In this document: positions 23,001 to 25,577 of the stretch, in pieces
Numbering within the stretch: the first letter of the stretch is position 1
Layout: the number at the start of each line of letters is the position of its first letter
Origin: Thermoleophilia bacterium
GTDB taxonomy: Bacteria; Actinomycetota; Thermoleophilia; Miltoncostaeales; Miltoncostaeaceae
Assembly: GCA_017853415.1 (NCBI GenBank)
Contig: JAFMJQ010000005.1
Coordinates: 1 to 34,027, forward strand
Length of the DNA stretch: 34,027 bases
Reading direction: 5' to 3'
Position numbers and translations under genes: made by a program
The notes under the pieces: generated by a model
Database searches by the model: none
What the model was told of the DNA's origin: nothing
The model's input: only the letters and a program-made list of their open reading frames with translations

Positions 23001-23182
23001 ACGTGGTGCGATCCGGGGCGACCATTCGCGGTGGGCGGGCCCTCGTAGAACACGTAGGGGTCGTGGCCCTTCCGCATCTCCACGCTCGTGCGGAACACAT
23101 CGCCGTCGCGCCACGACTGCAGCACGCGCTCCTCCATCGACGTCCACTCGGACGCCGGGCCCACGGGCTTCCAGCGGCTCAT
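20027..23182 (-). CDS. ileS: Isoleucyl-tRNA synthetase, type 2 (GSHH signature)
   Basis: It charges tRNA-Ile with isoleucine. Length is 1051 residues from ATG 23182. The class I start region reads EGPPTANGRPGSHHVLSRV. The position normally HIGH is G57-S58-H59-H60. The second signature KMSKS is intact (596-600). The editing domain is indicated by VWTTTPWTLPANQ. Cysteine pairs CPRC and CWRC, and the end region RAIQNARRDADL with DRI, fit the eukaryote-like type 2 (IleRS2) branch, which is tolerant to mupirocin. The start overlaps the upstream HAD phosphatase stop as ATGA. An upstream extension to 23281 would lie in the HAD gene and lacks family character. Confidence 0.95.
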   Translation of the reverse strand: MSRWKPVGPASEWTSMEERVLQSWRDGDVFRTSVEMRKGHDPYVFYEGPPTANGRPGSHHVLSRVFKDIFPRFHTMRGRYVERKAGWDCHGLPVELEVEKQLGISGKPEIEAYGIAEFNARCRASVGEYLDEWERLTERIGFWVDTSEAYRTMDTDYVESVWWSLATLHDKGLVYESDKVVPYCPRCGTALSSHEVAQGYRDVTDPSIYVKFPLRADAASVTGGEASLLVWTTTPWTLPANQAAAISPGTDYAVVVDGDERLVMAEALVGAVMGEGAAVERVIPAAELAGAEYEPPFDLIPGRHQVVLSDFVTTDDGTGIVHIAPAFGEDDMRAAREHGLDAPNPVDRQGLFTATVPLAEGQFVKDADRALITDLEARGRVQREKPYEHSYPHCWRCGTPLLYYAKPSWYIRTTDVRERMLELNASVGWHPEHVRDGRFGRWLEGNVDWAISRERYWGTPLPFWRCDDCSHVTAIGSFADLRERAIGDVPDPLDPHRPYVDDIDVRCHCGGVAHRVPEVADVWFDSGAMPFAQHHHPFEGPDDLAGRFPADFVCEALDQTRGWFYSLLAEGTLLFDESPYRNVVCLGLILDGEGQKMSKSKGNVVEPWTVIDHAGADAFRWYLFTAQSPWESFRFSLDVVDETRRRFLFTLWNTYAFLVTYAALPDGWSPGDPAPAVAERSAMDRWALSRLDGTTEQVTARLADYDPTSAGRALEDLIDDLSNWYVRTSRRRFWRSDDPADTAAAFATLHECLTTISLLVAPFCPFVADEMWGNLVAAHDDAAPPSVHLADWPAPGGRRDEQLEQAMAAAMEATTLGRSARKEAKLKVRQPLLEAVIACPPATARELEGLSGIVAEELNVRAVRFVTDAGGLVQVSLKPNYRTLGPRMGPNMPAMAEAVAALDATATVQALDAGDTVTVTVNGNDEVLGDDDLLREVRPSEGYAVAEGGALAVGLATGITPELEMEGLARDLVRAIQNARRDADLRVEDRIVLHLDGSARIREAIDAHRDWIAGEVLATELTVGHGVPFTPLHREDGEIDAEPVAIALSRA

Positions 23183-23850
23183 GCGGCCGCCCGCTCCCCG
23201 CCCTGCCACTCGCGCACCCGCGCGATGACCTGGTGGAAGTCCTCGAAGGGCTCGTATGGCGTGCCGCGCTCGTCGAGCCACTCGGCCAGGTGGGCGCGTG
23301 CGAACACCAGGTCGGCCATGCCCGACACGCAGCGGTCGCTGATGCCATCACCCACGAACACGATGGGCTCGCCCTCGTGGCGCACCGACAGCGCATGGCG
23401 CTTGCAGCGGCGGTCGCAGAGCTCGCAGATGTCGCCGCGGTCGTCCGAGAACACCAGCGTGCAGCCGTCCTCGCTGAAGATGGCCTCGTTCGCCACCACC
23501 TCGAGGTGCCCCAGGCCGATGTCGTCGAGCACCATGTCGATCACCGTGCGGAAGCCCGCCGACATGATGACCACGCGGTGGCCCTCCTCCTCGGCGAACT
23601 CCACGAGTTCGAGGATGCCGTCGCGCACGCCCGCGCGCTCGCGCACCAGCGCCATGATGTCGTCGTGCGGCGCCTTGACCTCGGCGAACTGCCGCGACAT
23701 GGCTTCCTCGATGGTGATGCGGCCGGCGCGCAGATCGGGCTCGAGGTCGTCCCACACGCCCTCGCACCCGTGCTCGTCGACGATGACGTGCAGGGTGTCG
23801 CGCATGGTGATCGTGCCGTCGAAATCGACGGCGAGAAGGAGCGGGGCCAC
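23179..23850 (-). CDS. MtnX-like HAD-IB phosphatase
   Basis: The 223-residue HAD phosphatase has nucleophile and acid in VDFDGTIT (D9, D11). Motif II is in VIMSAGF (S97). The acidic motif is VFVGDGISDRC (D168, D172). A cysteine cluster ICELCDRRCKR (C142, C145, C149) lies where MtnX-type enzymes have a Cys-rich loop. MtnX acts in methionine salvage, but no other salvage gene is nearby, so the substrate is open. The best start is GTG 23850, eight bases after TAGCCT. The alternative ATG 23883 adds 11 residues and would overlap the divergent promoter. It is the first gene of an operon with ileS, which it overlaps by four bases. Confidence 0.85.
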   Translation of the reverse strand: MAPLLLAVDFDGTITMRDTLHVIVDEHGCEGVWDDLEPDLRAGRITIEEAMSRQFAEVKAPHDDIMALVRERAGVRDGILELVEFAEEEGHRVVIMSAGFRTVIDMVLDDIGLGHLEVVANEAIFSEDGCTLVFSDDRGDICELCDRRCKRHALSVRHEGEPIVFVGDGISDRCVSGMADLVFARAHLAEWLDERGTPYEPFEDFHQVIARVREWQGGERAAA

Positions 23851-23858
23851 GGCCGGTG

Positions 23859-23864
23859 AGGCTA
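23859..23864 (-). promoter_or_regulatory. Candidate -10 for the HAD-ileS operon (leaderless)
   Basis: On the minus strand TAGCCT is followed by eight bases and GTG 23850, with no ribosome binding site. The fabZ promoter uses the same hexamer. Between this element and the divergent -10 at 23878 lies the 12-base dyad AGCGGCACCGCT (23867-23878), a possible shared operator. Confidence 0.4.
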
Positions 23865-23877
23865 TCAGCGGCACCGC

Positions 23878-23883
23878 TACCAT
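23878..23883 (+). promoter_or_regulatory. Candidate -10 for the hydrolase/lipid kinase operon
   Basis: TACCAT fits TAnnnT. Transcription would start near 23890, just before the Shine-Dalgarno at 23895. An ATG at 23882 lies inside this hexamer. It opens a nine-codon frame that ends at TAG 23909-23911, and it would not be transcribed if this -10 is used. Confidence 0.35.
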
Positions 23884-23894
23884 GATCGGCGTGC

Positions 23895-23903
23895 AGGAGG
23901 TGA
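23895..23903 (+). promoter_or_regulatory. Perfect Shine-Dalgarno before an ATA codon
   Basis: AGGAGGTGA is fully complementary to the usual 16S rRNA 3' end. Counting from AGGAGG, seven bases separate it from ATA at 23908, the ideal spacing. No ATG, GTG or TTG stands at that position in any frame. This site decides the hydrolase start. Confidence 0.6.
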
Positions 23904-23907
23904 CCCC

Positions 23908-24618
23908 ATAGACGCTCCGCGTCCCGTATTCATCCATGGCGCAGGCAGGACGCCCGCCTCGTGGGGCCCGCAGCTCGCCCGATTCGAGGGGGCGCTGGCG
24001 GTGGCGCTGCCCGGGCACCCCGACGGCGCGCCCCTGCTGGGCGCCCCGGCCATGGCCGAGTGGGTGATCGCCGAGGTCGAGGAGATCCCAGGCCCGCTGG
24101 TGATGGTGGGCCACTCCCTGGGCGGCGCCGTGGCGCTCGAGATCGCCCTCATGCGCCCCGATCTCGTGGCCGGGCTCGTGCTGCTGTCCACCGGCGCCCG
24201 CCTTCCCGTGCCCGATGAGGCCCTCGCGCGCATCGACGCCGACTTCACCGCCGAGTGCGCGCGGTTCGTGGAGGAGTCGTGGCTGCACCACGAGCCCGAG
24301 CTCATCCGCCGCGGGACCAACTCGGTCATCTCCATGGGCCCGGAGTCGCTGCGCGCCGACTACCTCTCGGCGCGCGACCACGACCTGCGCGGCAAGCTCG
24401 GCGAGGTCGACGTGCCCGCCATGGTGATCAGCGGCGAGTCCGACCCGCTGGTGCCCACCTGGCTCTCGGAGGAGCTCGCCGACGAGCTGCCCGGTGCCTC
24501 GCTGGCCATCATCGCCGAGACCGCGCACGTGCCGCAGCTGGAGCGACCGGAGATGATCGACCTGCTCATCGCCGCGTTCCTCGCCCGGCTCGAGCTGTCG
24601 ATGGCGGAGGACGCTTGA
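23908..24618 (+). CDS. Alpha/beta hydrolase with apparent ATA start
   Basis: The 236-residue alpha/beta hydrolase has a complete catalytic machinery. The oxyanion loop is VFIHGAGRTPASW (about 8-19). The nucleophile elbow is VGHSLGG (S70). The acid is in ISGESDPLVP (D179), and the histidine in ETAHVPQLERPE (H207). The oxyanion strand lies upstream of the first in-frame canonical start (GTG 24001), which would delete it. Between the in-frame stop at 23857 and this strand the only start-like codon is ATA 23908, behind a perfect Shine-Dalgarno. The substrate is unknown. The stop overlaps the lipid kinase TTG start (TTGA), so the two are translated together. Confidence 0.85.
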   Translation: MDAPRPVFIHGAGRTPASWGPQLARFEGALAVALPGHPDGAPLLGAPAMAEWVIAEVEEIPGPLVMVGHSLGGAVALEIALMRPDLVAGLVLLSTGARLPVPDEALARIDADFTAECARFVEESWLHHEPELIRRGTNSVISMGPESLRADYLSARDHDLRGKLGEVDVPAMVISGESDPLVPTWLSEELADELPGASLAIIAETAHVPQLERPEMIDLLIAAFLARLELSMAEDA

Positions 24619-25577
24619 CCGAACCGCGGCACGCTGCGGATCACCCGATCGCGATCCTCGTCAACCCCCGCTCCACCGCGGCGCAGGAGGGCCTGACCGA
24701 GTACGCCCGGGAGCGGCTCGAGCCCTTCGGCGTGCAGGCCGTGCTCACCACGCGCCAGCGCGGGCACGCGGCCGAACTGGCGAAGCTCGCGATGAAGGAG
24801 CATGACGCCCTCACCGTGGTGACCCTGGGTGGCGACGGCACGGCCGCCGAGGCCGCCGGGGCGCTGGTGAACACCGGCGCGGCCCTGGCGCCGATCCCCA
24901 CCGGCAGCACCAACGTGTTCTCGCGCACCATCGGCTGGCCCATGGATCCGCGGCTGGCCATCGACCGCCTGGTCGACGCCATCGCGCGCGGGCAGCGCGC
25001 CGAGCCCGTGACCATCGGCATCGTGGAGGCCGACGGCCAGGAGCGGCCCTTCATCGTGAACGCCGGCGTGGGAATCGATGCCGAGGCCGCCGACATGGTG
25101 GAGCGCCACCCGGACATGAAGCGCCGCATCGGCCAGCTGTGGTTCGCCGGCGCCACGTTCGTGGCCGCCGCACGCCACGTGCGCAAGGCGCCGATGCGGG
25201 TGAGCGTGGACCACGGCACCCCCTTCCCGCTGGCATCGATGAGCATCGCCTGCACCCGGCCCTATGCGTACTTCCGCACCCACGCCTTCGACCTCATCCC
25301 CGATGCCGGCCACGACGGCGCCCTGGGCTGGCTCGGCTCGGTGGGCCGGGGCATGTCGGGCCCCGCCATCGCCGCTGCCGGCGCCTTCACCGGCGGATGG
25401 CACCTCGACTCGCCGCGCATCGCGCACGGCGTGGCCCATGAGGAGATCGTGCTGGACTCACCCGACGGCATGGCGCTGCAGGCCGATGGCGAGCCGCTGG
25501 GGCGGCACCGGCGCATCGTGGTGCGGCCGGCCAGCGGACTGCTTGTGCTGCGAGGGGATTCCCGGCCCGGGGCCTAG
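24615..25577 (+). CDS. Diacylglycerol-kinase-family lipid kinase
   Basis: A 320-residue member of the DgkB/YegS lipid kinase family, which phosphorylates diacylglycerol or related lipids and so recycles them toward phosphatidate. The nucleotide-binding motif LGGDGTAAEA (GGDGT at 72-76) and the following IPTGSTNVFSR (TGSTN at 96-100) are diagnostic. FIVNAGVGIDAEA begins the second domain, and GMALQADGEPLG is the typical C-terminal beta motif. The start is TTG 24615 with GGAGG at 24606-24610, overlapping the hydrolase stop by four bases. Sphingosine-kinase-like or other substrates are possible. It is convergent with the fab/acc block, and the two final stop codons overlap in a CTAG. Confidence 0.9.
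   Translation: MTEPRHAADHPIAILVNPRSTAAQEGLTEYARERLEPFGVQAVLTTRQRGHAAELAKLAMKEHDALTVVTLGGDGTAAEAAGALVNTGAALAPIPTGSTNVFSRTIGWPMDPRLAIDRLVDAIARGQRAEPVTIGIVEADGQERPFIVNAGVGIDAEAADMVERHPDMKRRIGQLWFAGATFVAAARHVRKAPMRVSVDHGTPFPLASMSIACTRPYAYFRTHAFDLIPDAGHDGALGWLGSVGRGMSGPAIAAAGAFTGGWHLDSPRIAHGVAHEEIVLDSPDGMALQADGEPLGRHRRIVVRPASGLLVLRGDSRPGA

Follow-up and report, generated by a model that had tools for sequence, protein, structure and literature searches.

The 34,027-nt stretch of DNA analysed here (the window) comes from a 1.97-Mb metagenome-assembled genome of 174 contigs. Its plus strand carries a gene of 236 codons plus stop (23908–24618) for an alpha/beta hydrolase. Residues 7–215 matched Pfam PF12697 (Abhydrolase_6, E = 2e-21), the closest solved structure was the carboxylesterase Est-2 (5frd), aligned likewise from residue 7, and the translation contains an oxyanion-loop motif (HGAG, 23935–23946) and a nucleophile elbow (GHSLGG, 24109–24126, with the Ser codon at 24115–24117). 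Profile match, elbow and oxyanion HG motif together place the protein in Abhydrolase_6. The stop codon of the hydrolase overlaps the TTG start (TTGA) of a diacylglycerol-kinase-like gene (plus strand, 24615–25577; Pfam DAGK_cat, E = 2e-20), and on the other side lies a divergent gene for a HAD-family phosphatase (minus strand, 23179–23850; Pfam HAD, E = 4e-16) with a probable leaderless GTG start at 23850–23848.

Translated, the plus-strand hydrolase frame gives GYQRHRYHDRRAGGDP-I-DAPRPVFIHGAGRTPASWG...; TGA 23857–23859 closes it upstream and TGA 24616–24618 ends it. The first-pass annotation had reported that no ATG, GTG or TTG precedes GTG 24001 in this frame after the upstream stop; this held on inspection, and the positions it had given for the stop, the Shine-Dalgarno (SD) sequence, the ATA, HGAG and GTG 24001 were all correct. 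The HGAG motif lies upstream of GTG 24001. Because the Pfam and carboxylesterase matches both begin at residue 7, the motif falls within the fold, and a protein started at 24001 would lose the loop. The putative start codon is ATA (23908–23910, plus strand), separated by 7 nt from the AGGAGG of the SD sequence AGGAGGTGA (23895–23903, plus strand). Further upstream, TACCAT (23878–23883, plus strand) resembles a –10 hexamer (TANNNT) and would belong to the hydrolase promoter. GTG 23891 opens a 6-codon mini-ORF out of the hydrolase frame (GTG CAG GAG GTG ACC CCA TAG, 23891–23911, plus strand), predicted to be translated.

On the minus strand, TAGCCT (23859–23864), 8 nt before the GTG of the HAD gene, is a candidate –10 hexamer for that gene; its positions vary among the ATA orthologues described below solely as TAGCCT or TACCCT. 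Positions 23859–23883 of the window thus hold divergent –10-like boxes, TAGCCT (–) and TACCAT (+), 13 bp apart and each 7–8 nt from a GTG. The two divergent genes here are probably leaderless with overlapping promoters, an arrangement conserved in the genus.

The relatives available in public records are Miltoncostaeales/Thermoleophilia assemblies of uncultivated organisms known from environmental DNA. A hydrolase orthologue was held by 19 of 20 same-genus species genomes, and the comparison covers those 19. Three public records titled 'Bifidobacterium breve' (L044, L047 and L050; CAMCDF, CAMAVU and CAMCOB) contain genes like those of the Miltoncostaeales genus, and their labels look wrong.

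At the aligned position of the ATA, the 19 species have ATA (11), ATC (6), AGA (1) or ACA (1). The orthologue alignment proposed in the first-pass annotation thus found ATA kept and never ATG. Each of the 11 species in the ATA group is represented by a single genome, and the genomes stem from several sequencing projects. In all 11 the upstream hydrolase frame was free of ATG, GTG and TTG as far as the stop, which is the same TGA except in L020, where the frame is closed 12 nt nearer. Downstream, canonical codons occur from codon 7 onward and are variable, codon 7 itself being GTG in eight species and GTA, CTG or GTC in three. Column by column, three blocks of the leader (TACCATGA, CGTGCAGGAG and ATAGA) are invariant among the ATA species and the spacer between SD and start varies, as fits a promoter, an SD and a start codon. 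The SD takes the form AGGAG(GTGA), with the AGGAG core present in 11/11 and a match length of 9 nt in eight species and 5 nt in three. Most other members of the family have ATG or GTG at the aligned start position or one codon off.

Among the 11 ATA species, pN/pS was 0.042 for codons 2–31 and 0.062 for codons 2–6 alone, compared to 0.250 for the rest of the gene. This strong purifying selection on codons 2–31, and also on codons 2–6, indicates that translation starts at or before codon 2. We also examined whether the ATA could reflect ordinary isoleucine usage. Codon usage, like the promoter statistics below, was taken from stretches of ~0.3–0.4 Mb per genome. In the sampled genome, 59 of 3498 isoleucine codons (1.7%) were ATA, and the three columns with isoleucine in every one of the group's 12 species contained no ATA in 36 cells. 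ATA at 11 of 11 starts is therefore not ordinary isoleucine usage. The locus thus shows what marks conserved AUA starts: no canonical start that preserves the N-terminus, a codon kept in orthologues, and a strong SD at suitable spacing. Judged from these alignments, the odd AUA start is a real inherited feature, neither a sequencing error nor a fresh mutation. The earlier proposal of initiation at ATA behind a perfect SD gains strong support from the recurrence of ATA, AGGAG and their spacing in 11 species, and we consider it very probable that ATA 23908 is the genuine, conserved start of the hydrolase, initiated via extended SD pairing.

The leader differs between the ATA species and the rest of the genus in a consistent way. 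TACCAT is invariant in 19/19 orthologues and is followed by GTG exactly 7 nt on (13 nt from the start of TACCAT to the G of GTG), which would be the 5' end of the transcript; three species read GTGTG, in which the second GTG is the one at 7 nt. In the eight species with ATC, ACA or AGA, the hydrolase frame includes this GTG, and the SD match is 4 nt or less. In the 11 ATA species the homologous GTG is out of frame, and AGGAG and ATA are both invariant. The co-occurrence of out-of-frame GTG, SD and ATA was consistent in 19/19 species. It extends to G012, which the tree places within the ATA group as sister of the species that carries the window (85/82 support); G012 has one extra leader base, ACA for ATA, a broken SD and the GTG in frame. 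The tree allows ~3 independent changes, giving at most three independent pairs in a phylogenetic pair test, too few for significance.

Promoter statistics bear on the in-frame GTG. In three genomes of the family, the distance from the end of TANNNT to ATG or GTG peaked sharply at 6–9 nt genome-wide (in G019, 25 cases at 6 nt, 21 at 7 nt and 19 at 8 nt, versus 0–8 at ≥10 nt), the pattern that marks leaderless genes. The in-frame GTG of the eight non-ATA species, with TACCAT 7 nt before it, would accordingly be a leaderless start. Differences of a few bases separate the leaderless-GUG from the SD-AUA species, and a clade in which one promoter serves either mode offers a natural experiment in the shift of start sites between modes of initiation.

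From the leader we infer the following series of events. Transcription would begin at or near GTG 23891 and give a leader of ~17 nt consisting mostly of the SD (GUGCAGGAGGUGACCCC-AUAG). Extended pairing of SD and anti-SD would place the 30S subunit with AUA in the P site, where initiator tRNA-fMet would pair with AUA by its first two bases. In the sister species, the same promoter would yield a leaderless mRNA with a 5'-terminal GUG in frame, SD and ATA being absent. Expression of the hydrolase from AUA would likely be weak and sensitive to IF3; low yield is expected because the AUA starts of S. aureus infC, ccpN and citZ, which have extended SDs, give ~10–30% of the expression from AUG (PMC13009471). 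Tolerance of AUA is not explained by loss of IF3, since infC was found in 17/20 genus genomes. A point against this reading is that in M. smegmatis an SD permitted initiation at ATT and hardly at ATC, ATA being unmentioned there (PMC4633059).

A second point stands against direct initiation. ATG is one transition away from ATA and was never found, which direct initiation alone leaves unexplained. A refinement that we regard as possible, if rather doubtful, is that ribosomes enter at the leaderless 5'-GUG, read the mini-ORF, terminate at UAG and start again on the AUA that overlaps it, where the SD within the mini-ORF would hold them. The start codon would still be AUA, and expression would depend on the mini-ORF and its stop. 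Such coupling would account for the absence of ATG, because ATG would turn TAG into TGG and extend the mini-ORF 42–79 codons into the hydrolase. The mini-ORF has the same length and frame in 11/11 ATA species, with the peptide VQE(V/Q/M)(T/Q/K)(P/Q), and the ATAG overlap is kept in all of them; the invariant GTG 7 nt after TACCAT also fits. The conservation of TAG is not independent evidence, as ATA followed by a codon 2 starting with G gives TAG automatically. The first-pass annotation had offered rescue by a nine-codon frame (23882–23911) whose TAG overlaps the ATA. Help from a small out-of-frame ORF survives in the form of the leaderless GTG mini-ORF coupled via ATAG, and the overlap is as described, but the relevant ORF is the 6-codon one from GTG 23891, which shares that frame and TAG: ATG 23882 is probably untranscribed because it lies inside the probable –10 hexamer.

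Overlaps of this type were also found in three other genera, in which the stop of an upstream gene and the start of the hydrolase share 4 nt (ATAG in L028 and L029, GTGA in L030). We take this upstream gene to be a LOG/TIGR00725-like Rossmann gene from its motifs. The L028 orthologue (genus g10, 60% identity) also speaks for ATA as the start: its ATA lies 7 nt after GGAGG and overlaps the TAG of the upstream gene, and the frame is free of canonical starts over 312 nt upstream and, downstream, as far as +93. ATAG is present in L029 (g5) too, where no SD precedes it and a GTG occurs in frame at –102.

Precedents for coupling exist in mycobacteria, where leaderless translation needs no more than a 5' GUG and RTGA-coupled leaderless ORFs are over-represented (PMC4633059). 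Those small ORFs share with the present one a 5'-terminal GTG, a very short length and a 4-nt overlap, whereas the hydrolase overlap is ATAG with a non-canonical start and a predicted leaderless status, compared to RTGA with ATG or GTG (PMC4633059). As the overlap is ATAG, we claim that the mini-ORF may work like them, not that it belongs to their class. Termination-reinitiation at AUGA has been demonstrated in M. tuberculosis for uPPE2-PPE2, which resembles the hydrolase in having a uORF that lies in another frame and ends on the start codon of the main gene (AUGA), but differs in its AUG start, riboswitch control and a main gene without SD (PMC11260477). Against a need for coupling, the SD is strong enough without it, and leaderless translation is here a prediction. 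Direct SD initiation and the coupled refinement are inseparable on these data, and termination on the mini-ORF perhaps helps initiation at AUA. We suggest only tentatively that AUAG is a stop/start overlap that requires a non-canonical start, that selection for the stop keeps ATA from becoming ATG in the 11 species, and that similar ATAG coupling occurs in two other genera.

The remaining explanations are disfavoured. In a programmed –1 frameshift, which we consider very unlikely, ribosomes on the leaderless ORF (or on an ORF from ATG 23882) would shift before TAG into the hydrolase frame and add a short N-terminal extension. ATG 23882 and GTG 23891 are indeed off by just one frame, and the extra base of G012 puts them in frame; a slip would be possible at CCCC in the window, where an additional C would bring ATG 23882 into the frame of the hydrolase. 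However, the codons before TAG vary (ACC CCA, CAG CCA, ACC CAA, CAG CAA and AAG CCA), most of them cannot re-pair after a –1 shift, and the spacer is the variable part of a leader in which SD core and ATA are fixed. Frameshifting was rejected because the slip site differs between species.

Initiation at GTG 24001 or another downstream codon, to give a truncated or non-enzymatic protein, is less probable still. GTG 24001 is canonical and in frame, but it would remove the oxyanion-loop segment covered by the Pfam and PDB matches, would leave unexplained a segment (codons 2–31) more constrained than the rest of the gene, and is absent from several ATA species (L010, L016 and L020). A sequencing error at 23910 or a recent ATG-to-ATA change, both raised in the first-pass annotation and plausible at first sight for a metagenome assembly in 174 contigs, are excluded for practical purposes by the same ATA in genomes of 11 species from several projects whose synonymous sites have diverged.

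The hydrolase adds a new example of a mode of initiation that is rare but already established. The infC, ccpN and citZ genes of S. aureus, like the hydrolase, are protein-coding genes with a natural AUA start behind a strong extended SD, and the AUA start of ccpN is also found in B. subtilis (PMC13009471). They differ in phylum and in gene, and their initiation was measured, whereas use of AUA in the hydrolase is predicted. Only in the hydrolase does the AUA share bases with the stop codon of a mini-ORF that is probably leaderless. This AUAG arrangement seems to be a variant on both conserved AUA starts and RTGA-coupled leaderless ORFs, and the AUA start gains interest from this overlap and from the leaderless-to-SD switch. 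E. coli infC starts at AUU and is autoregulated by IF3 (also cited in PMC13009471). It resembles the hydrolase in its near-cognate AUN start and expected IF3 sensitivity; the likeness claimed here stops short of the IF3 feedback loop of infC.

We next asked how general such starts are. A scan for AGGAGG-N4-9-ATAG as a sign of general ATA starts gave no excess over the reversed control. A scan for GGAGGTGA-N2-5-ATA in 42 genomes listed 30 places versus 6 control matches; besides the hydrolase and rplJ of G008, each of the 21 other places inspected was non-coding, offered a usable GTG or contained no recognisable gene. These outcomes indicate that AUA starts are rare in these genomes and that the general rule is unaltered. 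At the ATA site, a sensitive Rfam search returned one chance-level match, below the gathering score of its family.

Other non-canonical starts were found in genes for core functions. In 18 genus genomes, rplJ (ribosomal protein L10) reads AGGAGGTGAGGAA-CTG-AACAGG, with CTG behind (A)GGAGGTGA. The CTG start was also present in 10 genomes from other genera of the family (the rplJ loci compared were G000:C5 (L125/L138), L119-L137, L157-L165 and L167); rplJ of G008 has an ATA start and, as codon 2, GAC in place of AAC, and L166, from another family, has ATG. In 4/4 genomes of genus g12 (L205:4592 = L240, L241, L242 and L243), gyrB has, at its N-terminus, ATC ~6 nt after AGGAGG, with no canonical in-frame start upstream and, downstream, either none or GTG only at +27 or +60. 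In other genera, gyrB has TTG, GTG or ATG close by. To judge from these leaders, the family appears to use non-canonical starts at a few genes with strong SDs. Gene finders would miss or truncate the hydrolase because commonly only ATG, GTG and TTG are allowed, and the rplJ and gyrB cases suggest that in this family even essential genes would be affected. A further candidate CTG start was seen in G030 (L206) at ~C1:39468 on the minus strand, behind GGAGGTGACCCC (LSALNVVAATPVMITAGAAT), with no canonical start within 60 nt upstream.
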